In this document: in pieces, positions 1 through 36,016 of the stretch | Position numbering within the stretch: position 1 is the first letter of the stretch | How the letters are laid out: each line of letters begins with the position of its first letter | IMG/VR virus record: IMGVR_UViG_3300024054_000362 | Span: 62,001 to 126,000 of that record | DNA length: 64,000 nucleotides | Strand: one strand, 5' to 3' | Origin: a virus | Program-made: the position numbers and the translations under genes | The notes under the pieces: model-generated | The model's input: only the letters and a program-made list of their open reading frames with translations | Database searches by the model: none | What the model was told of the DNA's origin: nothing

Positions 1-6
1 CGCAGT

Positions 7-168
7 TCAGCGTCGACGACGACGGTGGCCGACGGGCTTGTGGAAGCCCATCGCGATCATGATCCCGGCCGACAGAACCAGGCCTGCAACACCGAGCATG
101 ACTGCAGGTCCACGTGACGGCGGCGTCGACGGGGCCGACGTCGGCGGCGCCGCCTGTGCCAACATCAT
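7..168 (-). CDS. small C-terminally anchored membrane protein
   Basis: Fifty-three residues. A Pro/Ala/Ser-rich N-terminus (about 1-21) leads into one hydrophobic segment (about 22-41) and a tail ending RRRRR. The same hydrophobic-plus-arginine ending closes the four larger proteins encoded upstream on this strand (up to 4957), so it is probably the last gene of that membrane-protein operon. Start is ATG 168 with a second ATG directly after it; the ribosome site is weak. No family is recognised. Inferred role: minor virion membrane protein. Confidence 0.6.
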   Translation of the reverse strand: MMLAQAAPPTSAPSTPPSRGPAVMLGVAGLVLSAGIMIAMGFHKPVGHRRRRR

Positions 169-200
169 ATACCGCGAAGGCGACGTCCACTGTGCAGCGA

Positions 201-1037
201 TCACGCAGCCCTCCGACGACGACGCATCAACCAGTAACCGCCACCGCCGACAGCCGCCACCGCTCCGACGATCGCGAACCACATCACTGGATTGTTTACA
301 CGGAAGAAGTTGTCACGCTCCTCGCCCGGACGTGCGGACGTTGTTGCTGGAAATTGCGATCCTGGAAACTGCGATCCTGGAACCTTCGGCGGTACGAACG
401 GCGGCGAGCTGGATGGCGGAACCGTCGTCGGTCCCACGTCAACACGCGGCGGTTCGACGGTCGTTGGTACGGGCTCCGTCGATGTCGAGGCCGGCGGCGT
501 CACCGACGTTGCTCCCCCCGGCGCAGGCTCGCCGACGGCAACCGCGAACGTCGCGATGTCGACTTGCTGCACGCCTTGTGGCGGGGCATCGGTCTCGGCG
601 ACCGACTGGTGGGTCACAGCTTGGCCGAAGTACCCACCGAAGCCCGATCGCGGCGTCGCCATCGCAGCTGCCGGCGTGAGTGCAGTGATGAAACCGGCCG
701 CTGTCGGCGTCATCGGCGTCAACGTACGCGGTGGTACTGGAAGCGGTGGCGGCCGTAGCACGTCGAACGTCACCGCGATGCGCCACTTCCCACGACGCGC
801 GTCGAACGCTGTGATCGTCCCGGCCGGATACAGACAGCCGACGGACGTCGCGATCATCCACGGCGCCGGGCAGAGCGGCGGTTGCGTGGGTTGTGGGTTG
901 GTCGTCAACGCAGGCGCGAACTGTCCCGAACGCAGGCAGCCGCGCGACGTCAACACGGAACCCGGCGGACACGCTTGTGGCGTCACCGTTGGTGTCGTCG
1001 GTGTCATTCCGGGTGCGGTGGGCGATGCCGAGAACAT
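201..1037 (-). CDS. membrane-anchored virion-like protein, Arg-tail family (a)
   Basis: 278 residues. A Pro/Thr-rich N-terminus with paired cysteines is followed at about 69-90 by a short beta module of the pattern PAGTxxAFxxxxGxWRIAV. A long Pro/Ser/Thr linker follows, then one hydrophobic segment (about 250-270) and a tail with five arginines. The module and tail recur in the next three upstream genes, so these are paralogues. Topology suggests the bulk lies on one face of a membrane with the Arg tail on the other. It starts 3 nt after the stop of the gene at 1040 and is probably translationally coupled. Virion membrane location is inference. Confidence 0.75.
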   Translation of the reverse strand: MFSASPTAPGMTPTTPTVTPQACPPGSVLTSRGCLRSGQFAPALTTNPQPTQPPLCPAPWMIATSVGCLYPAGTITAFDARRGKWRIAVTFDVLRPPPLPVPPRTLTPMTPTAAGFITALTPAAAMATPRSGFGGYFGQAVTHQSVAETDAPPQGVQQVDIATFAVAVGEPAPGGATSVTPPASTSTEPVPTTVEPPRVDVGPTTVPPSSSPPFVPPKVPGSQFPGSQFPATTSARPGEERDNFFRVNNPVMWFAIVGAVAAVGGGGYWLMRRRRRAA

Positions 1038-1039
1038 GT

Positions 1040-2119
1040 TCAGGCCGCCTTCGCTGCGGGGACAGTTCTGCGACGACGGATATACCAGTAACCGCCACCC
1101 ACAGCGGCCACACCGCCGATCGTAGCGACCCAGAACAACGGCTTCTTGTAGAACGGCGTCGTGCCGGTCAGCTTCTCCAGCTCGGCCTCAGTAACCTGTC
1201 GAGCAGGCGCTGCGGGTGCGGTCGTCGACGGTGCCGTCTCGGTGAACGTCGCGCTCGCAGCTTGTCCGAGGCCACAGTCCCCGAAGATGCACTGACCGCC
1301 TCCGAACGTGGTGTCACGCATGATGCCAAAGCCAAGACCGGCCGTCTTGGGAGGTGTCGTAGTCGTCGGTGTCGGCGTTGTGACCGGAACCTTTGGGACG
1401 GCGACGCGATACTTGCCGAGCTTCTTGCTGAATGCGTAGACCGTGCCGGCCTTGACCGGGCTGGCCTTGACCGGGCTGGCCTTGAGCACCGTACCTGTCG
1501 TCAAGCTTTTCAGAACGTCCGGCGAGACGTGCGCCGTGATCTTGCGGCCACCGCTTGTCGTTGTCCCTGGTGCACCGGGCGTTCCCGCTTGCGGCGTTGT
1601 GCCAGCGGGGAAGATGACACGTAACGCTTTTTCGATGATCGCTGCTTGTCCGCCGACAGCGTTGTAGATCGTGTCGCGCATCTTCAAGGCCGCATCTGCG
1701 GCTTGATCACCTCTACCTTCACTGATTTCATTGCCGACTCCACGAATTAGCGCAGTAACATCTGTGAAGTGGCGGAACAAATCATATAGATTGAAGAAGC
1801 CTTTCGTCCAGCTCTCGATCTGAGCATTAGCGTCCTTCAACGTCGTAACGATCTCGGTGATGGCCGACTTGACGTCCGGCTGCTTGTCGAGCAACGACAA
1901 CTTGCTGACGAATTCAGCCGTTGCAATGAACTCGTTGAAGATCGCCGCCATCGTGATGTCGTTGATCACGCCGGTTGCTTGATCCTGTGGAATCTTTTTT
2001 CGGCTTATCAAATAAGTCTGGAGCGACTTGATCGCAGGCGAAGACATCTCTGCCCCGAGACCATTCATCGGGCTCAGGAAACCGGCCGGGCTCGCACCGA
2101 GAAGTTGAGTCGTCAGCAT
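1040..2119 (-). CDS. membrane-anchored virion-like protein, Arg-tail family (b), with PG-binding-like N-terminus
   Basis: 359 residues from ATG 2119, chosen because an AAGGAGC ribosome site lies just upstream. Residues about 28-60 resemble a weak peptidoglycan-binding helix bundle (KSLQTYL then GVINDITMAAI). A helical region follows, then the shared beta module at about 225-242 (GTVYAFSKKLGKYRVAV). The end is KKPLFWVA, a Gly-rich hydrophobic segment and RRRR. Before the module the peptide SPVKA is repeated, encoded by a 15-bp tandem repeat near 1450-1485. It has its own promoter at 2163-2192. Function unknown; virion membrane protein inferred. Confidence 0.8.
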   Translation of the reverse strand: MLTTQLLGASPAGFLSPMNGLGAEMSSPAIKSLQTYLISRKKIPQDQATGVINDITMAAIFNEFIATAEFVSKLSLLDKQPDVKSAITEIVTTLKDANAQIESWTKGFFNLYDLFRHFTDVTALIRGVGNEISEGRGDQAADAALKMRDTIYNAVGGQAAIIEKALRVIFPAGTTPQAGTPGAPGTTTSGGRKITAHVSPDVLKSLTTGTVLKASPVKASPVKAGTVYAFSKKLGKYRVAVPKVPVTTPTPTTTTPPKTAGLGFGIMRDTTFGGGQCIFGDCGLGQAASATFTETAPSTTAPAAPARQVTEAELEKLTGTTPFYKKPLFWVATIGGVAAVGGGYWYIRRRRTVPAAKAA

Positions 2120-2136
2120 CCGCGTGCTCCTTGGTC

Positions 2137-2152
2137 GATCGCGCGAGCGATC
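2137..2152. promoter_or_regulatory. 16-bp palindrome, copy 1 (GATCGC-N4-GCGATC)
   Basis: Perfect inverted repeat with spacer GCGA. It begins about ten bases downstream of the -10 box of the promoter at 2163-2192 and ends before the ribosome site of the gene starting at 2119. It therefore lies at about +5 to +20, as an operator or a 5' UTR hairpin. Confidence 0.75.
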
Positions 2153-2162
2153 TAACCCCTTC

Positions 2163-2192
2163 AAGCTACGCGGTGGGGAGCTACCTTGTCAA
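2163..2192 (-). promoter_or_regulatory. sigma70-type promoter, TTGACA-N18-TAGCTT
   Basis: On the minus strand TTGACA (2192-2187) and TAGCTT (2168-2163) are 18 nt apart. The site lies across and just beyond the 3' end of the 2181-4160 gene. The same two boxes with the same spacing occur at 4999-5028, and each is followed at about +5 by the 16-bp palindrome. Confidence 0.7.
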
Positions 2193-4160
2193 ACGTCGTC
2201 GCCGTCGGTACAGCACGTAACCGCCCGCTCCTGCTGCGATTACGCTAGTCCCCACCACGACCCAGAACAACGGTTGCTTGGTGATCGGCAACGTGCCCGT
2301 CGCCTTCTGGAATTCGGTCAGTGCCACGAGCGACGTGCTCGATGGTAACGTCGCCGCAGTTTGCTGGACGACTTCAAAGGGTGCGCTTTGCTCAAAAGCG
2401 CCGAGCCTTGTATGAACTCGTTTCGCGATTCGAAAACGCTGGATCTTCGGATCGAATGCGGCAATCGACCCCCTCGGATAGATCGGCGTCGTAGCAAGCG
2501 GGACAACTGGTGGCGTCAACGGCAGGAGCACCTGGCCGCCAACGGGCGTCTTCCCCGGACAACCCGTCACGTCGTTGGCAGCAGTCGCCATCGTGATCAT
2601 GTTCGCGGAGATGTTCGCGAGGATCGACGCACGCAGCTGTAGGAGGTGATTCGGAATTCCCGTAACTGGTGTCGACGAACCCGCGCCGGGCGACAGCGGC
2701 GCCGGCTTGGGGAAGTCCATCGCGAGGAACTTCAAGATCGCATACACCAGCTCGGCGACGTCGAGCGCCGCGCAAGCCGCGCGACCCTGTGCCGCTGCCG
2801 ATACGACGGCGGCTGACGTCGCCGGTGTTGCGACGAGACCGGTTCCAGCAGCCGCGATCGCGACGACGACATCGTTGTTGATCAGTGCGCAGCCGAACTC
2901 CTTGATGGTGGAGTAGATCTCCCCGATGTTGTCTTCGATCCAATTCCACGCGTCCGACGCAGCGTCGATGACCGTTCGCGCAGCAGCTGCAACAGCATCG
3001 GCAACGTAGTCCCACGGGTACCGCGATTCGTCTGGATCGGGGACGCGCTTGATCACGAGCAGCTCGGTCTGATCGTTCCAGAACGCGCCCATACGCGAGC
3101 CGTCGTTGCCCTTGAAAACGAGGAACGCAATCGCGCCACGCCGAACACTCAGGTCGAGCGAATCACCTTCGTTTTTGTGTTTCTCCCACTCAGCGAGATC
3201 GCGTGCCGCGAGATTCGCGCGCGGAGCCTTACCGGAGTACGACCGTGACGCGCCCCAGTCCGCCGACACGATCTCCTTACCCTTGGGCCACTCACGGTGG
3301 TCGCGTACTGCCTCACGCGCCATGATCCCTGGCGAAGGTGGTGGCAGCACGGGCTGGCAACCGGCTGGCGACGGACACGTCGTCAGCTGCGCCGTCATCA
3401 ACGGATACTTGATCGTTCGATCGACCTTCTTACACCACTGCCCCGAACGAAGTCGCTCCCAGTGGCCCGGCACGCCGGGCGACGCCGCCCAAATGAAGTT
3501 TCCGTCCGCGCTACACGTTCCGACTTCTGGTGCTGCATTGGTCGCACAACCGCCGAGGCCAATTTCACCGTTTCCACCAAGCCCATAGAGCGGACCGTCG
3601 ATCTTGGGGTCGTAGAAACGGGGCGGACGCCAATCCGACGCGAGAACCGCCTCAGCAGATCCCAACCCTGACGACGGCGCAGGCGGCGGGATGACGGCAA
3701 GCAGTGTTGCGATCGGAGCTGCTGCAACGCTCAACGCGCTCTTCACGGCCTTCATCGCGTTGTCGATGCTGCTCGCAACACCGCCACCGCCTGGAATCAA
3801 CCGAATGATGCCGAGCAGCGCGCTGTAGACCGTATCGATGATCCACGGCGAGAGGACGACGTTGATCACTTCCTCGCCGTACGGGATGACGCTGATCGGT
3901 TTTTTGATCAGTCCAACGACGTCGACAGCAGCGCCGACGACAGGATGGATCTGCGTCCCTACGAACTTTCCCGTATGCGCGATCGCGATGATCGTGCTCA
4001 ACGTCATCGTCCCGTCGTAGCGCGCAGGATCGCATTCGAGCTTCCCACGCTCGAATGCAAAACGGCGGAGCTGCTCCTGCAGCGCCTTTACGCCCGCCGT
4101 GACACCCGTCGGAATCGCGGCGGCGTCACCGAGCAAGTCACCTTGGTTGTAGTGGAGCAC
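2181..4160 (-). CDS. large membrane-anchored virion-like protein, Arg-tail family (c)
   Basis: 659 residues, the largest member of the Arg-tail family. The N-terminus (about 18-60) resembles a peptidoglycan-binding helix bundle. Hydrophobic or amphipathic stretches follow at about 75-185, then a Cys-containing Gly/Pro-rich middle and another Ala-rich hydrophobic region at about 425-480. The shared beta module is near 585 (YPRGSIAAFDPKIQRFRIA). It ends KQPLFWVV, a hydrophobic segment and RRRRR. Start is GTG 4160, 8 nt after the upstream stop, with a poor ribosome site, so coupling is likely. Several internal hydrophobic stretches suggest a more intimate membrane role than its paralogues. Not recognised further. 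Confidence 0.75.
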   Translation of the reverse strand: MLHYNQGDLLGDAAAIPTGVTAGVKALQEQLRRFAFERGKLECDPARYDGTMTLSTIIAIAHTGKFVGTQIHPVVGAAVDVVGLIKKPISVIPYGEEVINVVLSPWIIDTVYSALLGIIRLIPGGGGVASSIDNAMKAVKSALSVAAAPIATLLAVIPPPAPSSGLGSAEAVLASDWRPPRFYDPKIDGPLYGLGGNGEIGLGGCATNAAPEVGTCSADGNFIWAASPGVPGHWERLRSGQWCKKVDRTIKYPLMTAQLTTCPSPAGCQPVLPPPSPGIMAREAVRDHREWPKGKEIVSADWGASRSYSGKAPRANLAARDLAEWEKHKNEGDSLDLSVRRGAIAFLVFKGNDGSRMGAFWNDQTELLVIKRVPDPDESRYPWDYVADAVAAAARTVIDAASDAWNWIEDNIGEIYSTIKEFGCALINNDVVVAIAAAGTGLVATPATSAAVVSAAAQGRAACAALDVAELVYAILKFLAMDFPKPAPLSPGAGSSTPVTGIPNHLLQLRASILANISANMITMATAANDVTGCPGKTPVGGQVLLPLTPPVVPLATTPIYPRGSIAAFDPKIQRFRIAKRVHTRLGAFEQSAPFEVVQQTAATLPSSTSLVALTEFQKATGTLPITKQPLFWVVVGTSVIAAGAGGYVLYRRRRRLTR

Positions 4161-4168
4161 GCACGTAC

Positions 4169-4957
4169 CTAGTAGTACGCCGCCTTCGCCACGACAGGTG
4201 CACGACGACGCATGAGCAGCGCCGCGCCGCCACCAAGGATGATCACGCCGCCCGCGATCGCGACCCAGAAGAGCGGCTTCTTGAAGATCGGCTGCGTGCC
4301 CGTCTTCTCTTCGAAGTTACCCTCCGTGATCGTTGTGGCGCTTGCTGAAGGCGTTGCCGCGGATGGAATTTCAGAAATGGTTGGGGATGCACCTAAACCG
4401 AAAAAATCGCGCAAACCGGTTTGCGGCGGCAACGTCGTACCAACGGGAATGCCAACACGCCACAACCCCGTCTTGGCACTGAACGCTTGAACTGATCCGA
4501 CCGGCAGGTTGGTGTATGTCTGCGGTGTGCCAGTACTCGATGGCGTCGTCGGAAACTGCGTCGACGGCGGAAACTGCTGTGTTGATGTCGTCGGGAATGG
4601 CTGGCTCGGTGGGAACTGCTGGTCCGCGCCTGCCGGCTGGAACGTGTTCGATGTCTGGAACGCCGCGAACCGTGGATCCGTCGAAGACGACGATGTCGTC
4701 TGGAACGACGGTCCGAAAGCCGCCTGCGCGAGATGTGCGTTCGCCGTTGTGGTCGGCGTGTGCTGCTCTGCGGGTCGACCGCCACAGATCCCTTGCGCGG
4801 CGGACGTCACGAAGGCACCCATCGCCTGCGGCGTCGAGCGTGGCGCATGAACGCCCTCGACAGCAGGTCCGATCTCGCAAGCGAGATTCTGCAGATCGGC
4901 CACAGTCGAGTCCTCGACTGGGCGCGCATCACGACCGTTCAGCTGCGCGTAAAGCAT
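4169..4957 (-). CDS. membrane-anchored virion-like protein, Arg-tail family (d)
   Basis: 262 residues. First gene of the minus-strand membrane-protein operon. A 70-residue N-terminus with two cysteines precedes a long Gln/Phe/Pro/Thr linker with repeated QFP units. The shared beta module is at about 151-170 (LPVGSVQAFSAKTGLWRVGI). A spacer, KKPLFWVA, a hydrophobic segment and RRR close the protein. Start ATG 4957 has a GGAG ribosome site. The promoter is at 4999-5028. Confidence 0.8.
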   Translation of the reverse strand: MLYAQLNGRDARPVEDSTVADLQNLACEIGPAVEGVHAPRSTPQAMGAFVTSAAQGICGGRPAEQHTPTTTANAHLAQAAFGPSFQTTSSSSTDPRFAAFQTSNTFQPAGADQQFPPSQPFPTTSTQQFPPSTQFPTTPSSTGTPQTYTNLPVGSVQAFSAKTGLWRVGIPVGTTLPPQTGLRDFFGLGASPTISEIPSAATPSASATTITEGNFEEKTGTQPIFKKPLFWVAIAGGVIILGGGAALLMRRRAPVVAKAAYY

Positions 4958-4971
4958 GTTGGCTCCAAGTC

Positions 4972-4987
4972 GATCGCGCGCGCGATC
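4972..4987. promoter_or_regulatory. 16-bp palindrome, copy 2
   Basis: GATCGC, spacer GCGC, GCGATC. It lies eleven bases downstream of the TAGCTT box of the 4999-5028 promoter and upstream of the 4957 start, the same layout as copy 1. Confidence 0.75.
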
Positions 4988-4998
4988 TTGACACTTTC

Positions 4999-5028: not shown

Positions 5029-5096
5029 ATGCCCGATCGCAGCAGCGATCGCCGCGAAGCTACCCAGAAACCCTGAGGTCATGTTAGGTTGAACGT

Positions 5097-5942
5097 ATGA
5101 CCGAAGCGGTACTCGGGCGCGCTTTCACCGTCGGTGCTCAGGCCGGCCGCGCGCTCGCGCGACGACATCGCGTCCGCAGCTCCCTCGGTGCAACCGACGG
5201 GTTGACTACGACTTCCAGTGAAAAGATCGCCATCGCTGCCATCATCGCAGGCGGTGTCGCCGTGCTTGGTGGTGCAATCGCGTATGGAATTGCCGCGCGC
5301 CGTCGTACGGCTACACTGCGAGACACGCTCGGTCGCGTCCAGACACGCGTCAGCAAGGGCGGCATGACGCTCACCCACCACTACGATCCAGAGATGCCGA
5401 TCCAGCAACGCGTCGGCATTCTCCAGGATCTCGTGTGGAAGGGCGTCACCAACCCACAGATGCGCGAACTTGCGCTCGCGATCACGGGCTACGGAACACG
5501 TGACGTCACCGTCGGCAAGCGGCGATTCCGTGTGAAGGGTGCGGGTTGTCCCGCGCGCGACGGACTTTGCGAGTCCGAGGCGGTCTACAACTGGACCAAG
5601 AACAACATCCGCTACACCGGCGACGTCGCGCCCGTGAAGATGCCAGGAGGTGACGTTGAAGGCGTCGACCTCTTCCAGGCACCGCACCGCACCGTCGAAT
5701 TCGGTGGCGAAGACTGCGATGGCCACACGGTCGTCACGACGACGCTTCTCTCACTCAACGGCATCCCTGCAAAGTTTCGCATCACCGCGCCGACGAAATC
5801 TAGTGACTGGGCACACATCTTCGGGCTCGCGGGCCTCCCGAAGACCAATCCGAAGCGTTGGGTGCCCTTGGATACAACCCTTCCAGGAAACATGTTTGGA
5901 CGAGAAGTACCCTCGGCCAAGCACATGGATTTTGTTGCTTGA
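5097..5942 (+). CDS. membrane-anchored transglutaminase-like protein
   Basis: 281 residues. One membrane segment at about 43-66 follows a basic N-terminus. The C-terminal domain has the transglutaminase-like (papain-fold) pattern: Cys207 in GGEDCDGH, His240 in SDWAHIF and Asp259 in WVPLDTT. In this superfamily such a triad supports peptidase, amidase or crosslinking activity. With a membrane anchor and virion-protein neighbours it may cleave or crosslink envelope or structural proteins, which is inference. Start ATG 5097 lies six bases after TAGGTT with no Shine-Dalgarno sequence, so the mRNA is probably leaderless. Confidence 0.85.
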   Translation: MTEAVLGRAFTVGAQAGRALARRHRVRSSLGATDGLTTTSSEKIAIAAIIAGGVAVLGGAIAYGIAARRRTATLRDTLGRVQTRVSKGGMTLTHHYDPEMPIQQRVGILQDLVWKGVTNPQMRELALAITGYGTRDVTVGKRRFRVKGAGCPARDGLCESEAVYNWTKNNIRYTGDVAPVKMPGGDVEGVDLFQAPHRTVEFGGEDCDGHTVVTTTLLSLNGIPAKFRITAPTKSSDWAHIFGLAGLPKTNPKRWVPLDTTLPGNMFGREVPSAKHMDFVA

Positions 5943-9918: not shown

Positions 9919-10680
9919 ATGAAGAACAACGGCAATCTGGGTGACACCGACGGCTTCTCCGACGTCGGCGAGGTCGACATGTTCGGCCTCGATGAATTCG
10001 GACAACCTGCGGGCGGCGACTCCATGTGGGGTGCCGTCATCGGTGGTGGTGTCGGAACCGGCGTCGCGATGATCGCGCGCAAGATGACGAATAATCCGAC
10101 GAAGTCCATCCACAAGTTCTCCGAGCTGCTCGGCCTCGCGGCCGGCGGTATCGCAGGCGGCGTGATGATGGCGTTCCCGAGCACGCGTCGCATGGGCTGG
10201 GCTGCAGCCGCGACCGCGCTCGTGACGAACGGCCTACGTCAGCTGGAGAACTCGCTCGACAAGCAGGCGCAGCAGGCGGCGGCGAGCCCGACGGGTACGG
10301 CGCCGACGCCGACGCCGGCCGCGTTCGGTCGCGGCTTCGGCATCCCGACGATCGAGCCAGGCTACGTCGTCCCGGCCAACCTCCCAGCGATGGCGAACAA
10401 CGGCTTCGGTGCTGTGACGATCGATCCGGCCTTCCCGGTTCCGGGCTCGATCCACGGTGGCGGCATGGGCGGTGTCGTGATCGACCCGACCGCGGTGATC
10501 CAGCCGGGGCAGGGCTTCGGTCGCCCGGTCGAGCTGGTCGGTCCGCCGACGCTCGTCGGTGCCGGCGACTACGGTATGAGCGACAACGCGGGCGCGAACC
10601 AGACCAAGATCCTGGGCGGCCCGAGCCTGTCAGCCATGGGCGCGCACTTCGGCGCGACCCTGTTCGGCGGCAACAACTAG
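9919..10680 (+). CDS. membrane-associated Gly-rich structural protein
   Basis: 253 residues. After an acidic N-terminus there are two hydrophobic Gly/Ala segments (about 35-53 and 72-95), then a helix, and a long Gly/Pro-rich C-terminus with repeated units of the kind GFGxxTIxPxxxVP. It sits immediately before the main capsid candidate. A GAGAGG ribosome site precedes ATG 9919. Possible major membrane or scaffold protein of the particle; inference from position and composition. Confidence 0.7.
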   Translation: MKNNGNLGDTDGFSDVGEVDMFGLDEFGQPAGGDSMWGAVIGGGVGTGVAMIARKMTNNPTKSIHKFSELLGLAAGGIAGGVMMAFPSTRRMGWAAAATALVTNGLRQLENSLDKQAQQAAASPTGTAPTPTPAAFGRGFGIPTIEPGYVVPANLPAMANNGFGAVTIDPAFPVPGSIHGGGMGGVVIDPTAVIQPGQGFGRPVELVGPPTLVGAGDYGMSDNAGANQTKILGGPSLSAMGAHFGATLFGGNN

Positions 10681-10830: not shown

Positions 10831-11580
10831 ATGGCCGGAGCAGTTGGCGTAGCGCCATCAACCACCACCCTCACGCTGCCCGACGGCAGCACCATCGCCC
10901 TCGCGGACTGGATCGACGACAAGCTGTACGGCTCGGTCCAGTTCCAGAACGGGCTCACCACGCCGCTGGAGGCCTACTCGTCGGGCCGCAGCCAGCCGAT
11001 CCCCGGCGGCCAGCGCGTGCAGACGCGCGTCGACACCAACATCCCGCGCAACGGCGACTCCGGTCTGCCCAAGGACTGGGAGATGCTCGTCTATGGATGG
11101 GGCATCGAGGTCGTGCGCGTGATGCGCGCGCCGGACACCGCACCGGATCGCCCGACGCTGAAGGACGACTTCTCGACGGTGATCCCGGGCGCGGGCGCCC
11201 CGATCGCGCCGTTCGCGCTGTCGGATCCGCCGATGCTCGTGACGCTGTTCCAGATGGATCGTGTGACGTTCTTCCAGTACGAGTACAACGCCAAGTTCTA
11301 CACGCAGGGCGTCCTCCAGGACTACCCGCAGGGACACGGCTACAACGTGTTCTCGACGAACACGGCGTTCGAGCTGGCGCAGAACGGCGTGCCGTCGCCG
11401 CGCGACCGCGTCGCGCTCGTGCTCCCCGTGCACGAGCGCGAGAACCTCGGCTACAAAGGCATCTTTCAGCCCGAGGCACCGGTGCGCATCGCGCAAGCTG
11501 CATCGGATGGTGCTACGGCACTGAACTTCGCGGACGTCAAGCTCTACAAATACGGTCTAATCAAAAGAACCGTGGTGTGA
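10831..11580 (+). CDS. candidate major capsid protein
   Basis: 249 residues, beta-rich with many aromatic residues, no membrane segment and no recognisable enzyme motif. Motifs include TLPDGSTIALADWID near the start and LVLPVHERENLGYKGIFQ near the end. Evidence for a capsid role: a structured leader, a good AAGGA ribosome site, very high G/C third positions suggesting strong expression, and the best terminator of the window directly after it (11609-11640). It could instead be another abundant virion protein. No jelly-roll fold can be proved from sequence alone. Confidence 0.6.
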   Translation: MAGAVGVAPSTTTLTLPDGSTIALADWIDDKLYGSVQFQNGLTTPLEAYSSGRSQPIPGGQRVQTRVDTNIPRNGDSGLPKDWEMLVYGWGIEVVRVMRAPDTAPDRPTLKDDFSTVIPGAGAPIAPFALSDPPMLVTLFQMDRVTFFQYEYNAKFYTQGVLQDYPQGHGYNVFSTNTAFELAQNGVPSPRDRVALVLPVHERENLGYKGIFQPEAPVRIAQAASDGATALNFADVKLYKYGLIKRTVV

Positions 11581-21865: not shown

Positions 21866-22270
21866 CTACGTCAACTCGGTGACCGTCGCGAAGCCACCAA
21901 CGCCGGGCCCCCAAACGCCTTCGATGACGCCCGTGTACGCGGGAAACGGCAGCTCGAAGTAGCTGTGCGGCCCCAGGCGTACCGAGTAACTAACGCTGCT
22001 CACACCGCCGCCGAGCTTGATGTACATGAAGCGGTTCGCCGAGTCGTTGTTGATCGTCGCGCCGAGCCGCGCGGGATTGGCTGCCAGATAGACTGCCGGG
22101 ACAGCCGACGCTGGGATCGTCGTCGTCACGCCGATAGACGGCTGCGTGATCGTGACGATGATCGGAATCCCGCCGCCCTTGAGCAGGACAACCATCGCCC
22201 AGTCGTCGGGCGCTGCAGGCGCGTCCTGACGAATCGTCGGTGACGTGACTAGCGCCCGCGCCGGGTCCAT
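21866..22270 (-). CDS. virion surface protein, beta-domain paralogue
   Basis: 134 residues. Homologous to the C-terminal domain of the 20007 protein: NPARLGATINNDSANRFMYI aligned with NRLGAILWNNGAQQAYV, and YFELPFPAYTGVI with WEIPFPVYTGII. Probably a capsid decoration or spike-base protein. ATG 22270 is six bases after TAGGCT (leaderless type). Confidence 0.7.
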   Translation of the reverse strand: MDPARALVTSPTIRQDAPAAPDDWAMVVLLKGGGIPIIVTITQPSIGVTTTIPASAVPAVYLAANPARLGATINNDSANRFMYIKLGGGVSSVSYSVRLGPHSYFELPFPAYTGVIEGVWGPGVGGFATVTELT

Positions 22271-24670: not shown

Positions 24671-24797
24671 GTGGGCCGATTGCCACTACAATTTGCCGGA
24701 AAGGACATCACCTTTCGGATTCCGTACAACATCGCTGCTGAATTGGACGTTGGTCCAAATCTCAACGGTGTTGTCTTCCCCGAAGCGTCCAACTACT
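24671..24797 (+). CDS. capsid-like protein, exon 1 (gene split by group I intron)
   Basis: Encodes the first 42 residues plus one base of the next codon, from GTG 24671 (GAGGAGG ribosome site) to the 5' splice site; without splicing it stops at TGA 24797-24799. After removal of the intron the frame joins exon 2 (25118-25536) to give a 181-residue beta-rich protein. It has motifs such as DITFRIPYNIAAELDVG near the start. Size and strand-rich character recall the small single-jelly-roll capsid proteins of membrane-containing phages, but this is only a resemblance. No enzyme motif. Confidence 0.75.
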
Positions 24798-25117
24798 GAA
24801 CGCCGCCCAAGGTAACTTGGGACGAAAAACCACGTGAACTGCTGGAACCCCCTAAAGCTCGAACGCCACAGCGTGGCCGGCAACGGCGAGCGCGACGGCT
24901 TGAAAAGCGTCGAGATGTACAATGGGCAATCAGCAGCCAAGCGACTCGGCGACGAGTCGAAGGTTCAACGACTAGGGCATGGAGTCTCAGCGGCGCAGGT
25001 CGGTGAGATGGTAGAGCCCCACGAGTGCGTGGCAACCGGTCACACCGGTTGAAGATATAGTCTGAGCTACCGGGAAACCGGTAGGAGCCGCATAAACAGC
25101 GGCTCGCTAACACACCT
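24798..25117 (+). ncRNA. group I self-splicing intron
   Basis: About 320 nt with no ORF. Core elements seen: the J3/4-P4 signature GGGCAATCAGCAGCCAAGC; a stem CGACTCG/CGAGTCG; GGTTCAACGACTA (P7 5' strand GACTA 24970-24974) pairing with TAGTC (25058-25062) in AAGATATAGTC; P9 (25067-25084, GAAA loop); and a further hairpin 25085-25105. P1 can form with U24797 opposite G24811. The sequence CTG occurs at both junctions, so the boundary is ambiguous by up to three bases; in-frame splicing gives an uninterrupted protein. The terminal G normally expected would be G25118. Confidence 0.9.
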
Positions 25118-25536
25118 GCTTCCTCCACAACGTCGACAAACCGTTCGAGATCCACCGCGTCAAGATCGAGCTGACGGCCAAGGGCACCCCAGAAGGCTTC
25201 AGCACGCCGACTGTATTGGAGCCCCAACCGACGACGATGCAGCGTCGCGTGCGGCTCAACATCCTCGACTTCTCGAAGAACGAGAAGCTGACGAAGTCGT
25301 CGACGCTCGTCGGGCTTCTTCTTGCGCGCAACACGGGTGCGTGGGATCTCGAAGAGCCCTACACGATCGTCCGCAGCGAGGGCTTCCAAGTCGGCGTCGA
25401 CACGCTCGACTTTCCCGCCGTCGTCATCCTCGACGAGAACATCGAACCCGAGCGCGTGCTCGTCGAGTTCGTTCGCGTCGAGGTAAATCTTCAGGGCTAT
25501 CTCGACATCGTCGGTCCACCCAGCGAGGTCCGCTAA
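25118..25536 (+). CDS. capsid-like protein, exon 2
   Basis: Encodes about 139 residues (CFLHNVDKPFEIHRVKIEL onward, ending VGPPSEVR). It has no start codon of its own before residue 60 or so and opens just after an in-frame TAA inside the intron, which supports splicing. Alternating hydrophobic strands (RRVRLNILDFS, TLVGLLLARNTGAW, VLVEFVRVEVNLQGYL) suggest a beta barrel. It is followed by two small structural genes. Strong candidate for a capsid or penton-type protein. Confidence 0.75.
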
Positions 25537-25557: not shown

Positions 25558-25860
25558 ATGCAGAATACGACCTTCGAGACCTTCAACGTTCAACCCGTCG
25601 GTTCCAACACGCCGACAACGCTGGCCAAGGCCGCGACGCATCCGTTGCGCGTCCTTGTCAACAACGTCGGTCCGGTCACGATCTTCGTCAGCCTCAACAC
25701 GACAGATCTACAGCCGACGCCGTCGATGCAGACCTATCGCGTGTTCCCGGGTCAACAGCACGCGCTCGTGCTCGCACCCAAACAAGGCCTCCACGCCGTT
25801 GGTGTCGCTGCCGGCGGTCTCATGTCGGTCACCGCTTCCGAAGCGTTGCCGGTCGGCTGA
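25558..25860 (+). CDS. small beta-rich virion protein
   Basis: 100 residues. Strands with VNNVGPVTIFVSL, YRVFPGQQHALVLAPKQGLH and a Gly/Ala-rich end. Its pattern (a sandwich with a PGQQ loop) recalls the C-terminal domains at 22301 and 26791. ATG 25558 lies 21 nt after the split gene. Probable capsid or spike-base component; inference. Confidence 0.7.
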   Translation: MQNTTFETFNVQPVGSNTPTTLAKAATHPLRVLVNNVGPVTIFVSLNTTDLQPTPSMQTYRVFPGQQHALVLAPKQGLHAVGVAAGGLMSVTASEALPVG

Positions 25861-26790: not shown

Positions 26791-27777
26791 TTAGTCGAAC
26801 GCGTCGATGCTGATCGAGACACCTGCGATGACGATCGCCGACGTCTTGACGAGCATGAAACTGACGCCGGGGTTACAAAGTTGAAAAACGGCGCTCTCCC
26901 CTGCAGGAACAGTCGTCGCTGCAAGCATCTCGACCTCTTCGTTCGTGTGCGACGCGAATACGGGACCTGAAACTTCCACGACCTGATGAAAGGTCCCGGA
27001 TACCGCGAGGTCGAAATCCGAACCGCCGATGTTGCGCACGCTGACCGAGATGTTTCGTCGGCCAGCAATCGGAACGACCATGGTTCCTTGAGGCACGTTG
27101 AGCGGGTAGGTGTACGCACGGTGGAACGGCGCACGTCGTCCCGTCGGAAGCGCCCCGAGACTGCTCATGTAAAGCAACAAGCGTAACTCAGGGTTCGTCC
27201 ACGTATCCGGCAGTGCAACCGTTCCTGAATTCATCGCGGTGCCGTATGGCAAGCTCGCGCCTGTTGTCAGCTGCAGGTACGTGTCGCTGTACCAGTGCGC
27301 GGGATCCGCGCGCACGATGAACGGCCCCGGTACGACGCCAATCAACGGCGATTCCTTGTTGAGAACGAACTCCGTCTCCAGGATGCCGCCGCGATTCACG
27401 AAGCCCGACTCGAACGGCACGTTGCCGCCGGGGGGCGGCACCTGTGGCAACGGCGGCGGAACGAACAAAGGCGACGGCGGAACGTTCGGCAAACTGGGCG
27501 GCGTCTGCGGCAACGAGTTGAAGTGCAAGATGCAACGGTCGATGTCGCTACGCGGCGAGATCGCGATGGCGTAGACGCTCGGGATCAACGGCGCCATGAA
27601 CCGTCCCTCGATGGGGATCGATCCGTTGGCGTTGGTCTTGACCGGCGGATACTGAATCGAGCCGTTGTCGGCGTCCTGTTTTTGTCCGCGGTTTCCCCAG
27701 TTCGTCAGGATCAGCTCGTAGATGTTGTCACCGAGCTTGATCGCGTCTGCGAACGTTCGCGGGTTGATCTGGGCCAT
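26791..27777 (-). CDS. virion structural protein
   Basis: 328 residues. A beta domain at 1-85, a Pro-rich linker (repeats of PPxPxxPPP type, about 88-115), and a C-terminal beta region of about 210 residues ending VKTSAIVIAGVSISIDAF. The end (GESAVFQLCNPGVSFMLVK) is similar to those at 22301 and 25558. No membrane segment. Start ATG 27777. Pro hinge suggests an extended spike or vertex protein. Confidence 0.7.
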   Translation of the reverse strand: MAQINPRTFADAIKLGDNIYELILTNWGNRGQKQDADNGSIQYPPVKTNANGSIPIEGRFMAPLIPSVYAIAISPRSDIDRCILHFNSLPQTPPSLPNVPPSPLFVPPPLPQVPPPGGNVPFESGFVNRGGILETEFVLNKESPLIGVVPGPFIVRADPAHWYSDTYLQLTTGASLPYGTAMNSGTVALPDTWTNPELRLLLYMSSLGALPTGRRAPFHRAYTYPLNVPQGTMVVPIAGRRNISVSVRNIGGSDFDLAVSGTFHQVVEVSGPVFASHTNEEVEMLAATTVPAGESAVFQLCNPGVSFMLVKTSAIVIAGVSISIDAFD

Positions 27778-28049: not shown

Positions 28050-28370
28050 ATGCTCGGAGACATGTTCGGCAACCTCGGTGCTCGTCGACGCAAGCGCAGC
28101 CGCAAGAGCCGCAGGGGCCGCGGTGGATGTGCTGTCAAGACGATCACGATCAAGACGCGTCGGGGCAAAGTCGTCCGGTTCCGCGGCAAGAGCGGCGCCG
28201 GCTGCGGTCCGCGTCCGAAGCCGCGTACCGGCCACCTCGCCCCGTACAAACGCGCTATGGCAAGCGCCGCACGCTCCTGCAAAGGCCTCAAGAAGCGCCA
28301 GTTCGAGAGCTGCGTCGCGAGCGCAATGCGCAGTGGTGGCGGCAAGCGCCGTCGCCGTCGCCGCAAGTAG
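28050..28370 (+). CDS. protamine-like basic protein
   Basis: 106 residues. Arg/Lys-rich at both ends (RRRKRSRKSRRGRGG near the start, KRRRRRRK at the end) with a short Cys-containing middle (SCKGLKKRQFESCVASAM). It resembles small DNA-condensing core proteins of viruses. A good GAGGAG ribosome site precedes ATG 28050. Likely packages or neutralises DNA in the particle; inference from charge and neighbours. Confidence 0.75.
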   Translation: MLGDMFGNLGARRRKRSRKSRRGRGGCAVKTITIKTRRGKVVRFRGKSGAGCGPRPKPRTGHLAPYKRAMASAARSCKGLKKRQFESCVASAMRSGGGKRRRRRRK

Positions 28371-30733: not shown

Positions 30734-31396
30734 ATGAGTCTCACCCAAGATACGGACTTCAAGTGCGTCGACAAAGCGGGCAACCCGCTGAACTTCTGCT
30801 TCGGGATCGGTGCAGCAAACCACACGCTGCTTCAGAAGTTGCAACAAGCAGTCAACCGGCTCGCGAACCTCGGTGGATTCCCCGCGTTGACCGTCGACGG
30901 TTTTATCGGACCTGATACGGTGGCTGCCGTTCGAAAGGTGCTCTTCATCGGCCCCGTAGGCAGCCTTCCTTGGACCAAGGAGACAATCTCCAACAACGCG
31001 TCTGAAGTCATCGACGGGTTGAACAGTATCGCCGCCGATCTTCAAACCAGGGGCGACGTACTAGCGCCCGAGGGTACGCCCGTCGAGCCGACCATCCAGA
31101 CGATGGCGACGTCGACCGGTATTCCTCAAGAAAGCGCAGCTGACATCATCGCCGCCGCACTCGGACCGGCACCGAGTAACCAAAAAACCTTCAAGCTCCT
31201 GCCGTGGATCTTGGGTGGCTTGGCGGTCGTCGCCGCTGTCGGCGTCGGCGGCTACTTCTACCACCGCCACAAGGCGCGTCAGCAACTCGGATGGGGCGAC
31301 GACGATGATTTCGGAGACGATGATCTCGGAAACGATGATCTCGGCGACGACGATCTCGGCGACAACGACTTCGACGGCGGTAGCGAGGAGCTATAG
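30734..31396 (+). CDS. PG-binding-like membrane protein, tandem copy 1
   Basis: 220 residues. N-terminus has DFKC and FCFGIG, then a peptidoglycan-binding-like helix bundle at about 30-70 (LQKLQQAVNRLANLGGF, LTVDGFIGPDTVAAVRK). A helical spacer, one membrane segment (KLLPWILGGLAVVAAVGVGG inside, about 157-180) and an acidic tail of repeated DDDLG units follow. Copies 2 and 3 come directly after. Family knowledge: such domains bind cell-wall peptidoglycan. Inferred role: virion membrane protein contacting the wall during DNA entry. Confidence 0.8.
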   Translation: MSLTQDTDFKCVDKAGNPLNFCFGIGAANHTLLQKLQQAVNRLANLGGFPALTVDGFIGPDTVAAVRKVLFIGPVGSLPWTKETISNNASEVIDGLNSIAADLQTRGDVLAPEGTPVEPTIQTMATSTGIPQESAADIIAAALGPAPSNQKTFKLLPWILGGLAVVAAVGVGGYFYHRHKARQQLGWGDDDDFGDDDLGNDDLGDDDLGDNDFDGGSEEL

Positions 31397-31398
31397 CC

Positions 31399-32037
31399 GT
31401 GAGTCTTCTCCCCGAGCAGTTCCCACTTCCCGACAGTCTTGTCCCTGGAACAGACTTCAAGTGCGCCGATCGTGCCGGGACGCCGCTGAACTTCTGTTTC
31501 GGAATCGGCGCCGGCAACCACGCGACCCTTCAACTCCTACAGCAGGCCATCAACCAGTTCTCGGTTCTGAAGGGCTTCGCACAGCTCACCGTCGACGGTT
31601 TTGTTGGTACCAACACCGTCAACGCCGTACAAGCCATCCTCCCGATCGATCCGCCATGGACCAAGGAGCAAGTCACGGAACGTGCAACGGGCCTGTTGAT
31701 ACAGATCGACAACGCTGCAAGGCAGCTAGAACAACAAGGACACACGCTCGCATCAATCGGCGAGCCCGTCCCTCCAGCACAGAGCGTGGCGTCGACCGGG
31801 GTTCCGTCGTCGACCGGCAGTGAAATCGTCGCTGCGACGACAGCACCGACAACCGCAGCAGGCATCGCTGCCGTTGTCCCAAAGTCGAAGTTGCTACCGT
31901 GGATCCTCGGCGGTCTCGCTGTTGTCGCCGCGGTCGGCGTCGGCGGTTTCTTCTATCATCGAAACAGACTCCTGAAACAGGCGGGATGGGGTGACTACGA
32001 CGACGCTGACGACCTCGGCGCCGACGAGGAGGACTGA
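31399..32037 (+). CDS. PG-binding-like membrane protein, tandem copy 2
   Basis: 212 residues from GTG 31399, 2 nt after copy 1. Same order: DFKCADRAGTPLNFCFGIG, helix bundle with LTVDGFVGTNTVNAVQA, a spacer, the nearly identical membrane segment KLLPWILGGLAVVAAVGVGG, then an acidic tail (DDADDLGADEED). Closest to copy 1; clearly a tandem duplication. Confidence 0.8.
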   Translation: MSLLPEQFPLPDSLVPGTDFKCADRAGTPLNFCFGIGAGNHATLQLLQQAINQFSVLKGFAQLTVDGFVGTNTVNAVQAILPIDPPWTKEQVTERATGLLIQIDNAARQLEQQGHTLASIGEPVPPAQSVASTGVPSSTGSEIVAATTAPTTAAGIAAVVPKSKLLPWILGGLAVVAAVGVGGFFYHRNRLLKQAGWGDYDDADDLGADEED

Positions 32038-32040
32038 TCC

Positions 32041-32775
32041 ATGTGGGGTGCTGCGCTCACACAAAACGTCGACTTCAACTGCAACAAGGACATCTGCTTT
32101 GGAATCGGTCCCGTCCACGACAAGTACAAGCTGTTTCAGCAAACGCTGAACCGCTTCGCACCGCTCGGGAAGGGTTTCAAGCCGCTCGATGTCGACGGAT
32201 TCATCGGAGATCTAACCGTCGCTGCCGCAAACGCGGCTGCTGAAGTTGCAACACTACCGTCACCAGGTCTCACGCACGAAGCCGTCGCAGCCAGCGTCGA
32301 CGACTTCACGTCGCAGCTGTCGAGTATCATCGACATGCTTGTCACGGCAGGCGTGATCGCGCCGATCAACGATGCCGAACGCGCCAAGATCGCGGCCACC
32401 GATACCGACCTCACCAAGCCACCGCCGGCTGCTGCAACCGCCATCGTCGGCACATCGACGCCGTCGCCTGAGATCGACGGTGTGATCCAACAGACCGTTG
32501 CCGCGTGTCGTGCCAGTCGTTCGAGTCCTGCGTGTACCCGCGCCAAGACGATGTGCAAGAGCATCCGCGGGACGCCCCAGGCTTCGCTCGCCGAAGTCAA
32601 AGAAATCTGCGACTCGACTTCGACACCGCTCTGGGTGTTCCTGCTCGCAGGAGGCCTCGGCGTAGGCGCCATCATCGGAATCGGCGTCCTCCACGCCCGT
32701 CGACGTCGCGCCGCCGAAGCCGTGGCACTCGGGAACGATGCACGTCCGGCCCGTCGGTATAAGCGCGTTCGTTGA
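32041..32775 (+). CDS. PG-binding-like membrane protein, tandem copy 3
   Basis: 244 residues. DFNC, ICFGIG and the bundle with LDVDGFIGDLTVAAANA mark it as the diverged third copy. It has an extra Cys-containing helical segment (about 155-195) before the membrane segment (about 200-220), and a basic instead of acidic tail (RRRRAAEAV, ARRYKRVR). The opposite tail charge suggests a different partner on the inner side. Confidence 0.8.
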   Translation: MWGAALTQNVDFNCNKDICFGIGPVHDKYKLFQQTLNRFAPLGKGFKPLDVDGFIGDLTVAAANAAAEVATLPSPGLTHEAVAASVDDFTSQLSSIIDMLVTAGVIAPINDAERAKIAATDTDLTKPPPAAATAIVGTSTPSPEIDGVIQQTVAACRASRSSPACTRAKTMCKSIRGTPQASLAEVKEICDSTSTPLWVFLLAGGLGVGAIIGIGVLHARRRRAAEAVALGNDARPARRYKRVR

Positions 32776-32777
32776 GC

Positions 32778-32793
32778 GATCGCTTGCGCGATC
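32778..32793. promoter_or_regulatory. 16-bp palindrome, copy 9
   Basis: GATCGC, TTGC, GCGATC, upstream of TAGGCT and the start at 32828. Confidence 0.7.
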
Positions 32794-32827
32794 AAGTTTG
32801 TGGTAGGCTCTGCTAGAGGCACCCCAC

Positions 32828-33772
32828 ATGCTCGCAACCTATGTCAACGGTTACGCGTACGGCTTCGGACAGGCGCCAACGTCGTTCGTGCAGTACTTCG
32901 CCCAGATGAGCAAAAAACGGCAACTGGGTGCAGGATTTCAAGGACTAGGGCAACCGGCGAACGACTTTATCGCCTTCAACAACGGCCAGTCGTCACCTGC
33001 ATCCTTTGTCGGTGACCCTGCAGGGTTCGGTCTCGGCAATGTGGTCTTCTGCAACAAGGAAGCAGGGACCAACCGTCCGCAGTGCATCTTGAATCAGACC
33101 GGTGATGGAGCGCGTGCACCCATTCGTGCAATGCAGCTAGCAGCTGATCGGATCATCACACTCATCAATCAAGGCCTTCGTAACCAACTCGCAGGCGACC
33201 AACTGTGTGCACAGTTCCCGCGCGCAGATGGTTCCGGTACGTTCGAGAACTGTGCTCCGATCGGTCAGATTCAAGACAATCCAATCGCGAGCGGCGGTGG
33301 CGGCGGAATCGACGGCATTGTTGGCGACACCACACGAGGTGTCGTCGGCCTAGCACTGACATTTGCCGGAGCCCTCAAACAAGTTCCTCTGGATGCCCGA
33401 GGGCGGAACGTGATGATCGCGATCATCGAACCGCTCAACAACGGCATTCAGGCCGAAATGTCTGGCGATATTGCGGCCTACCTGAACGATGTCGCCGACA
33501 ATTTTCCAGCGCTTGTTGAAGCATTCAAGGCACGCGGCGGTACGTCGATTCAGACGGTGATCGATCCCGCCACGATCGAAGCGCTTCCATTCGTGCTTCC
33601 GGCCGCTGTCGCCGGCACGTCGAACAAGAAGGCGATCATCGCTGCGACGGCCGCAATGATCGGCCTGACCTCGGTCGCAGCGTACGCTGCCGGCGTGAAG
33701 AAGCCGATGGCGCTCTACGCCGACAAGCCCGCGCTCGGTCGCGGTCGTCGCCGTCGCTCGCGGAGGTACTAG
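32828..33772 (+). CDS. membrane protein with PG-binding-like motif and basic tail
   Basis: 314 residues. Four cysteines in the middle, a peptidoglycan-binding-like half motif GGIDGIVGDTTRGVVGLAL at about 157-176, a helical C-terminal half, one membrane segment (about 268-287) and a tail GRGRRRRSRRY. It follows the three-copy cassette but has its own palindrome and promoter. Probably related in function to that cassette. Confidence 0.75.
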   Translation: MLATYVNGYAYGFGQAPTSFVQYFAQMSKKRQLGAGFQGLGQPANDFIAFNNGQSSPASFVGDPAGFGLGNVVFCNKEAGTNRPQCILNQTGDGARAPIRAMQLAADRIITLINQGLRNQLAGDQLCAQFPRADGSGTFENCAPIGQIQDNPIASGGGGGIDGIVGDTTRGVVGLALTFAGALKQVPLDARGRNVMIAIIEPLNNGIQAEMSGDIAAYLNDVADNFPALVEAFKARGGTSIQTVIDPATIEALPFVLPAAVAGTSNKKAIIAATAAMIGLTSVAAYAAGVKKPMALYADKPALGRGRRRRSRRY

Positions 33773-33810
33773 CCCGTGCTCGCCTCCTCGACAAACTGGA
33801 GAGGTCGTCT

Positions 33811-34269
33811 ATGCTCTCCGTGACGCAATCCCAACGCGTCGAGGATAGAAACGGCGAGAGCGCCAACGAACTGATCGCGGCGTGGGGGCGGAGCGGCTAT
33901 CGCTACGGCTTCCCCGACTTCTACGCAGCGCAGTTCCCGGTCCGTCCGATGTACTACGACCAAAGCTGCATCTACAACGGTGTGATCGGTCGGCACTACC
34001 CGGACGCGCAGACCGGCCGCTACCACTACATGTTCGATCAGAACATGTACCTGCAGCCCGGCAACTACGATCCCAACCCGTTCCCGACGCGGGGGTTTGG
34101 TCAGACCGAACCAGCGTCGACACCGCCGGTAACACAGGCCGCCGTTCAGACCCCGTCATCAGGTACAGCCCGCGCAGGTCGCGTCGCAATCGGTGTAGGG
34201 ATCACGGCAGTTCTGATCGGCGCCGGCATCTTCATCAGCTCGCGATCGCGGCGTTCTTCCCATCGCTAG
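33811..34269 (+). CDS. single-pass membrane protein, Tyr-rich
   Basis: 152 residues. N-terminal 85 residues are rich in Tyr, Asn, Gln and Asp (YRYGFPDFYAAQFPVRPMYY), then a Thr/Pro linker, a membrane segment (about 127-145) and a basic tail. GGAGAGG upstream of ATG 33811. Probable minor virion membrane protein. Confidence 0.7.
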   Translation: MLSVTQSQRVEDRNGESANELIAAWGRSGYRYGFPDFYAAQFPVRPMYYDQSCIYNGVIGRHYPDAQTGRYHYMFDQNMYLQPGNYDPNPFPTRGFGQTEPASTPPVTQAAVQTPSSGTARAGRVAIGVGITAVLIGAGIFISSRSRRSSHR

Positions 34270-34302
34270 CAAGTAGGGCAAAGCGCGAGTATAATCACAC
34301 TC

Positions 34303-34533: not shown

Positions 34534-34534
34534 C

Positions 34535-34550
34535 GATCGCTCCAGCGATC
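34535..34550. promoter_or_regulatory. 16-bp palindrome, copy 10
   Basis: GATCGC, TCCA, GCGATC, seven bases upstream of the TATCGT box of the leaderless start at 34570. Confidence 0.75.
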
Positions 34551-34569
34551 GGTGTGGTATCGTCGCGGT

Positions 34570-35067: not shown

Positions 35068-35324
35068 GACGCCGACACCGTCAGTTAGGCGCGGAATGTG
35101 CCACCAGCTCACGCCTGTCGCGTGGCGTCGTCGGCGGCATCATGGGCGGCGTCGCAGGCGGCGTAATCGGCCTCCTTGTCGGCGCTGTCGTCGGTTTCAA
35201 AAAGATCAACGATGCATCGTCGCAGACGGCACCGTTCAAGGCCTCGATTGGAGCTGCCGCCGGGGTCACCGCTCTCGGCATTCTTGTCGGCGCGACGGCG
35301 AGCGCCATCCAACCGGAGTGCTGA
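35064..35324 (+). CDS. PEC-family membrane protein 2
   Basis: 86 residues from GTG 35064, overlapping the upstream stop (GTGA). A basic Cys-containing N-terminus, two Gly/Ala/Val membrane segments (about 20-42 and 60-80) and the ending AIQPEC. Same plan as its neighbours, so a tandem duplicate. Confidence 0.8.
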   Translation: MRRRHRQLGAECATSSRLSRGVVGGIMGGVAGGVIGLLVGAVVGFKKINDASSQTAPFKASIGAAAGVTALGILVGATASAIQPEC

Positions 35325-35557
35325 TGGCACGCGACATCCTTGTGAAGCGCAGCTGTAAGGGAAGCTCGCGTGCTGCACGCGCAGTCGAAGGTGCAGCCCT
35401 CGGCGCGATCGTCGGTCTGTTTGCAGGCGGTTTGATCGGCGGCCTTGTATTTGCGGGCGGGTCTTCGAAGAAGACCGCGATCCTTGTCGGACTGGGCGTG
35501 ATGGGCGCCGCCACGGCCGGCGAGAGCGTGCTTACGGCTCTGCCGCCCGAATGCTAG
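35324..35557 (+). CDS. PEC-family membrane protein 3
   Basis: 77 residues; ATG 35324 overlaps the upstream stop (TGATG). Basic N-terminus with one Cys (VKRSCKGSSRAARAV), two Gly-zipper segments and the ending ALPPEC. The shared N-terminal Cys and final Glu-Cys suggest paired thiols on one side of the membrane. Confidence 0.8.
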   Translation: MARDILVKRSCKGSSRAARAVEGAALGAIVGLFAGGLIGGLVFAGGSSKKTAILVGLGVMGAATAGESVLTALPPEC

Positions 35558-35615
35558 CGAGGTAGCGCTCGCGGTCTCTTGCGTCGTGCTTCATGTTAGT
35601 GGTGCTGCGTGGACG

Positions 35616-35852
35616 TTACTTGACCCCCTTATTGCAGCCCTTCCCCTTGCGACAGAAGAAGTACGTGCCGTCGTAGTAGACATGCGCGATCAGGTTCTTC
35701 GCCGGTCGCCGTGCAGGCTTGCGTCGAACCTTGCAACAGCTCGTCGGAAGCAGTCGGTTCGGCGGGTTCTTGACCCAGTGGTTGCGGTCCAACAACGCGA
35801 TCGCGTAACGCGTCGCCGGCTGATCCACAGCACGGTAGATGTGGAAGCTCAT
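35616..35852 (-). CDS. small basic protein with Cys pairs
   Basis: 78 residues from ATG 35852, overlapping the upstream stop by 4 nt. Contains TSCCKVRRKPARRPAKN and ends YFFCRKGKGCNKGVK, a possible zinc site. Last gene of the minus operon that starts at 36822. Confidence 0.65.
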   Translation of the reverse strand: MSFHIYRAVDQPATRYAIALLDRNHWVKNPPNRLLPTSCCKVRRKPARRPAKNLIAHVYYDGTYFFCRKGKGCNKGVK

Positions 35853-36016
35853 CGGGACCTGCGCTCCTTCTGAACGACGTCGTACGCCGCCTCGGCCTGT
35901 GCGTACGTCGTGACGATGCCCTCGCGAGCTTGGGTCGCGATGATGGTCGGGACCATCAACCTTCGACGAAGAACCGGATCGGCCAAGATCGCCCGGATAT
36001 CGACTCGTCTCAGCAT
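35849..36016 (-). CDS. small helical protein
   Basis: 55 residues from ATG 36016, overlapping the upstream stop by 7 nt. Two helices (VDIRAILADPVLRRRLMVPT, YAQAEAAYDVVQKE). Unknown function. Confidence 0.65.
   Translation of the reverse strand: MLRRVDIRAILADPVLRRRLMVPTIIATQAREGIVTTYAQAEAAYDVVQKERRSR

Follow-up and report, generated by a model that had tools for sequence, protein, structure and literature searches.

Do bacteria host large viruses that have an internal membrane but no tail? The question is raised by a stretch of 64,000 nucleotides, here called the window, which corresponds to bases 62,001-126,000 of the 221,422-bp IMG/VR virus record IMGVR_UViG_3300024054_000362. The original prediction, made from the window sequence, was that it belongs to a large tailless, membrane-containing virus. 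In this study, the whole record and its relatives were analyzed, and the genes alone make it fairly probable that they represent a lineage of large tailless membrane phages (138-221 kb) resembling Salisaeta icosahedral phage 1 (SSIP-1). This reading is favoured because no tail or terminase module was recognised, because one candidate shell protein, protein B, is predicted to have a jelly-roll-like and not an HK97 fold, and because a membrane-anchored structural protein is common to the record and SSIP-1. The prediction is supported in part: a second candidate shell protein, protein A, has only a poor structural model, and the candidate packaging ATPase is missing from a complete relative.

SSIP-1, an isolated tailless phage with an internal membrane, is described as membrane-containing, with PRD1-adenovirus-type architecture and two types of major capsid protein (MCP) (PMC6356626). 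It has been listed with T=49, a size of ~100 nm, a 44-kb circular double-stranded DNA (dsDNA) genome and a question-marked single jelly roll, and is the largest prokaryotic virus in the comparison table of the same paper (PMC6260650). The genomes of double-jelly-roll viruses in prokaryotes are reported to span 7-18 kb (PMC5894146), next to which a size of 138-221 kb would be exceptional. In the mechanism that we propose, the window would be the virion-gene half of a 221-kb dsDNA phage genome. The particle, most likely tailless and lipid-containing, would resemble that of SSIP-1: proteins A and B, both of single-jelly-roll type, would form the shell, and the internal membrane beneath it would bear many virus-coded proteins held by C-terminal anchors.

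The record and its relatives

A total of 260 genes were called over the whole record, which was read piecewise, with our own gene-calling script. The record is probably circular, because a type I-C cas operon (cas3, cas5, cas8c and cas7, then the array; order assigned by eye) crosses its ends and the cas8c open reading frame (ORF) is continuous over the junction. Provided that the ends overlap by 1 base, cas8c is a single ORF of 668 codons, for which the chance is one in three frames; Pfam supports Cas3_HD and Cas7 in this operon.

Relatives of protein A (10831-11580, plus strand) were found in 15 further IMG/VR records, at 54-92% identity and on contigs of 39-196 kb, and a repeat scan with the protein A alignment returned the same 15. 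These and the present record, 16 in all, are referred to as the family. The sibling G002 (137,914 bp) is treated as complete because it carries an exact 123-bp terminal repeat; G001 (195,792 bp) is likely to be complete as well, less clearly so, its 127-bp repeat not being flush with the contig end. Protein A was also found on two bacterial metagenome-assembled genome (MAG) contigs. A provirus in Gemmatimonadota CP070815 was considered and rejected, since the element there is bounded by 100-N scaffold gaps and gives neither host nor integration. An HK97-like protein beside that element (L044:12167-13093, minus strand; PHROG 2e-4) was likewise not accepted as a family member: it sits on a separate 2.5-kb piece between N gaps, and because the MAG is scaffolded the two need not belong together.

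Search for tailed-phage genes

The original prediction had recognised no terminase, portal or tail gene in the window, and a check of the adjoining sequence agrees with it. Profile searches found no tail module, and neither the window nor the remaining 157 kb of the record has a gene recognisable as one for terminase, portal, tape measure or HK97 capsid. When 138 unknown proteins were scanned against PHROG, none of the best 25 of the 92 matched families was structural, and the matches of 20 large proteins, examined in full, were confined to fibre or collagen types and to weak tape-measure hits that are regarded as noise from hydrophobic sequence. The Pfam profiles for the large terminase subunit (TerL), portal and HK97 capsid had no match in the record. 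The informative single-family search is Terminase_6C, which detected none of the 16 family records though it found both tailed controls (1e-17 and 1.8e-10); phrog_2 detected one of the two controls. Both controls also escaped the portal and HK97 profiles, the negatives of which are therefore weak. None of the Caudoviricetes hallmarks (large terminase, portal and HK97 MCP) was thus seen, the single-family tests for the latter two being insensitive. In the complete G002, the P-loop ATPases are of SF3/AAA, SF2, Sak4-like and UvrD types (assigned by eye), and none is terminase-like.

These searches bear on a rival explanation, namely a phage of the tailed or some other conventional kind in which the genes for terminase, portal, capsid and tail are too diverged to be recognised; B and the neighbouring protein C would then serve in decoration or fibres, and the anchored proteins would act in the host envelope. 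The failure of the portal and HK97 profiles on tailed controls leaves room for it, and so do a genome size typical of large tailed phages and a VWA gene (phrog_2426, 4e-166) common to hundreds of tailed phages. The ATPase set of G002, the Terminase_6C result, the lack of any protein of tape-measure size and the homology to SSIP-1 gp34 described below speak against it, and we consider such a phage unlikely.

The conserved virion-like module

In the relatives, genes recur in the order transglutaminase-like protein, Gly-rich membrane protein, A, B, C, D and protamine-like protein. The four candidate loci of the original prediction, at 10831, 24671+25118, 25558 and 26791, are A, B, C and D, and they proved to be conserved and syntenic in the relatives. 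The transglutaminase-like protein (5097-5942, plus strand; Pfam Transglut_core, 8.7e-5) has an N-terminal membrane segment and is present in 14 of the 15 relatives, and the Gly-rich membrane-type protein (9919-10680, plus strand) keeps its position directly 5' of A in all 15 IMG/VR relatives. Protein A, the candidate major shell protein, shows the highest conservation in the module. The small protein C (25558-25860, plus strand; 13 relatives) lies immediately 3' of B, and protein D (26791-27777; 9 relatives) is downstream of C, here on the opposite (minus) strand. The protamine-like protein that had been predicted (28050-28370, plus strand) contains 35% Arg plus Lys and is conserved, with homologues in G001, G002 and G003; together with other Arg-rich proteins it may aid DNA condensation. 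Separately, a cluster of small Arg/Lys-rich proteins (20-37% Arg plus Lys) was noted at 168-180 kb of the record (L007), and G002 has a similar cluster.

Gene B is split in the window (exon 1, 24671-24789, 3' end approximate; exon 2, 25119-25536, 5' end approximate; both plus strand) because a group I intron interrupts it (24790-25118, plus strand, limits approximate; Rfam RF00028 at 24763-25084, 71.8 bits, E 3e-16), whereas the orthologues read have a single uninterrupted ORF of 164-179 aa. The structural model of B was built on the uninterrupted L018 orthologue with a 14-sequence alignment. It is confident (predicted local distance difference test, pLDDT, 84.5; predicted template modelling score, pTM, 0.79), and its secondary structure is all beta, the strands being arranged much as in a jelly roll. 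Its fold neighbours in the PDB are mostly single-jelly-roll capsid proteins, including those of SH1, HCIV-1 and HHIV-2 and VP17 of P23-77. On this confident model, the fold matches of which are weak, B would be a capsid-type protein with a single-jelly-roll-like and not an HK97 fold.

The original prediction had named two capsid-like beta proteins. For B this stands at the level of the model; A is also predicted to be all-beta, but its model is of poor quality (pLDDT 45.8). A is small for a double-jelly-roll protein (235-249 aa), and searches of INPHARED phages, PLSDB plasmids (72,556), PDB, Pfam and PHROGs gave no match to it. A Foldseek search with the A model was set aside, the model being too poor for use; nothing fell below E 1e-3, and jelly-roll capsids crowd the list. 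A would nevertheless be the major shell protein in the proposed particle.

The plasmid search touches a further alternative, that of a large plasmid-like or defective element which makes no particles. Integrase-type genes, a ParB-like protein and type I-C CRISPR-Cas, all of them found on plasmids too, would suit such an element, as would the two relatives within bacterial MAGs. Since protein A is unmatched in 72,556 plasmids, and since the record has jelly-roll protein B, a homologue of an SSIP-1 structural protein, an endolysin and anchored lytic enzymes, we regard this alternative as very improbable.

Relationship to SSIP-1

In a tblastn search of INPHARED with the transglutaminase-like protein, one phage species was matched, SSIP-1, through gp34 (E 7e-6), which is annotated as a structural protein. 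The profile of the transglutaminase-like family gave 49.7 bits for gp34 and at most 5.7 bits for shuffled SSIP-1, phiCbK and P23-77 controls, and the copy from G012 scored 77.8 bits against gp34 by BLAST.

The predicted spike paralogues are present as a pair of minus-strand genes for spike-like proteins (20007-20561 and 21866-22270), referred to as family S, whose profile matches the SSIP-1 structural protein gp48 (24.1 bits; E 9.5e-8 in a set of 57 proteins; no control above 7.4 bits). As an SSIP-1-specific marker, family S was ruled out by its occurrence in podovirus MW202524, and it is not diagnostic because the domain is thus found in a tailed phage. The virion structural proteins in common with SSIP-1 are the gp34 homologue and, non-specifically, the gp48-like family S. 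In the podovirus, the domain lies in an unannotated region (MW202524.1:8014-8337, L081) and shares 33% identity with the protein encoded at 21866 in the window.

The module proteins Gly-rich, A, B, C and D correspond to SSIP-1 gp44-gp48 in position and size alone. A circular map and two candidate shell proteins in tandem after a Gly-rich protein (position alone) are likenesses to SSIP-1, whereas the genome is 3-5 times larger, A and B have no detectable relation to the MCPs gp45 and gp46, and the SSIP-1 ATPase gp40 has no counterpart in five family genomes. The comparison of gp45 and gp46 with A and B, which found no sequence similarity, used single-sequence SSIP-1 profiles, and scans for relatives of gp45 and gp46 recovered SSIP-1 itself alone. 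The RecA-like g234 was tried as a gp40 counterpart and gave no match.

Membrane-anchored and lytic proteins

The expectation of about twenty membrane-anchored proteins is borne out by a simple hydropathy scan, in which a membrane segment was predicted for 19 of 42 genes in 1-36 kb of the window, part of them probably false positives, and for 2 of 37 in 36-64 kb (Fisher p = 7e-5). A C-terminal membrane segment with a basic tail is present in 26 of the 260 record proteins, compared with 2 of 293 in the tailed-phage control phiCbK, which is matched in G+C content (p = 2e-7). This C-terminally anchored set includes M23 and C39 peptidases and a GDSL hydrolase, and six anchored proteins have a P-x-(F/M)W motif ahead of the membrane segment (shuffled expectation 0.025 per proteome). 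In the window, three proteins on the minus strand (1040-4957) have a common C-terminal anchor consisting of P-x-FW, membrane segment and Arg tail, and a run of C-terminally anchored proteins is found on the plus strand (30734-34269), the first three of which are paralogues with weak peptidoglycan-binding similarity. The wall-binding-like domains that had also been predicted are strong in other parts of the record (M23, C39 and GH25) but weak within the window (PG_binding, E = 0.008).

Anchored wall-degrading enzymes may serve to breach the host envelope on entry, the side of the membrane on which their domains lie not being deducible from sequence. A GH25 endolysin with a peptidoglycan-binding domain adjoins a small conserved membrane protein, which suggests that progeny would be released by endolysin-driven lysis.

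Dozens of single-anchor proteins with basic tails would also be expected of pleomorphic or outwardly enveloped particles, with the anchored proteins projecting as spikes from a lipid vesicle and a matrix or spikes made of the jelly-roll proteins, and G002 has no clear packaging ATPase, which fits as well. The lytic endolysin speaks against budding, and both the gp34 link and the co-conservation of two shell-type proteins point instead to the icosahedral SSIP-1; we therefore hold such particles to be quite improbable.

Packaging ATPase

The packaging ATPase had not been located in the window, and a search of the flanking sequence for an FtsK/A32-like ATPase had been proposed. A HerA/FtsK-family ATPase gene was found there, at 189,878-191,599 of the record, outside the window and beside a gene for a paralogue of B; its product matches DUF87 (4.8e-12) and, at 1.4e-17, a PHROG family that bears the label terminase large subunit. 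The HerA-type gene, which is distant from the module and has replication genes around it, was detected in 4 of the 16 records only, and its absence from the complete 138-kb sibling G002 rules it out as a universal packaging motor. For these reasons it is not claimed as the motor of the family, although it may package DNA in this clade, not in all relatives. A missing packaging ATPase is not unprecedented, because the Odin group of double-jelly-roll viruses also has no detectable one (PMC5894146).

A more far-reaching version of the tailless membrane reading, which we put forward as speculative and rather doubtful, is that these are giant phages of a previously undescribed lineage with a single-jelly-roll shell and a predicted particle size of ~150-170 nm (by cube-root scaling from SSIP-1), at least some of which have no dedicated packaging ATPase and assemble their shell and membrane round DNA condensed by protamine-like and Arg-rich proteins. 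Judged by eye, inteins seem to be present at 185-200 kb of the record (L008) in replication and nucleotide genes, namely in a PolA-like protein with a uracil-DNA-glycosylase-type N-terminus, in NrdB and in a PD-(D/E)XK nuclease.

Assessment and comparison with known viruses

Several points weigh against a tailless membrane phage lineage. Protein A is without a confident structural model, and the sequences of A and B do not align with SSIP-1 gp45/gp46 or with the P23-77 capsid proteins. The PDB fold matches of B are weak (E at least 3e-3, template modelling score below 0.5), the cement protein of KHP30 tops the phage matches by probability, and the 12 BFVD matches below 1e-3 are a mixture of capsid and non-capsid proteins. 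A transglutaminase-like domain by itself does not prove any virion type, and the podovirus with a family S domain has terminase and portal genes. The excess of C-terminal anchors is strong in G000 and G001 (14) and weaker in G002 (5) and G003 (3), and the scattered occurrence and setting of the HerA-type gene, described above, belong here too. Two of these points, family S in a podovirus and a jelly-roll cement protein among the fold matches of B, would also suit a diverged tailed phage.

Among known groups, Helvetiavirae and Singelaviria (P23-77, SH1, HHIV-2 and HCIV-1) resemble the family in that their capsid proteins are weak fold neighbours of B and that two co-conserved candidate shell proteins are present here; of the two single-jelly-roll MCPs of these groups, B offers a jelly-roll-like counterpart, while the model of A is poor. 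Their genomes are 17-30 kb, unlike those of the family, and no sequence match to A or B was found. The packaging ATPase gene of P23-77 adjoins the MCP genes, which is not so in this record. Double-jelly-roll prokaryotic viruses (Tectiviridae, PM2, the Odin group and others) are likewise of tailless membrane type, and most have FtsK-HerA ATPases; they differ in their genomes of 7-18 kb, and no double-jelly-roll MCP was recognised in this record. Large tailed phages (phiCbK and Ackermannviridae) are similar in genome size, in their nucleotide-metabolism gene pool and in the VWA gene, but carry TerL, portal and tail genes, and phiCbK has far fewer C-terminal membrane anchors.

If the tailless membrane reading is true, giant tailless viruses with a membrane infect bacteria as they do eukaryotes, in a lineage of 138-221 kb that has at least 15 metagenomic relatives; a large phage genome can then no longer be taken, as a rule of thumb, to imply a tail, and the orphan phage SSIP-1 gains relatives. 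The lineage makes it testable how such a large genome is packaged without a terminase. A description of such a lineage was not found in the open-access literature searched, which is no proof that none exists.

Other genes of the record

The cas3-cas5-cas8c-cas7 operon lies outside the window (L001:2742-6215 and the record's ends), and adaptation genes were not recognised in it. The spacers of the record gave no convincing match to the relatives. Downstream of the operon, the CRISPR array has ~44 repeats, which are unusually variable (mean pairwise identity 67%) and retain a 3' end of GGATAGAAAC type and, in many cases, a core that is palindromic.

In the window, the VWA-type protein that matches phrog_2426 is encoded at 14608-16917; its tailed-phage homologues are ~34% identical, the best being Aeromonas and Dickeya phages of Ackermannviridae type. 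At 43593-46024, a gene for a MoxR-type AAA ATPase adjoins one for a DUF2201 metallopeptidase/VWA protein, a pair also present in the MAG element. The protein encoded at 40041-41924 has a PEP-utiliser mobile domain at its end (1.1e-14) and relatives in G001 and G002.

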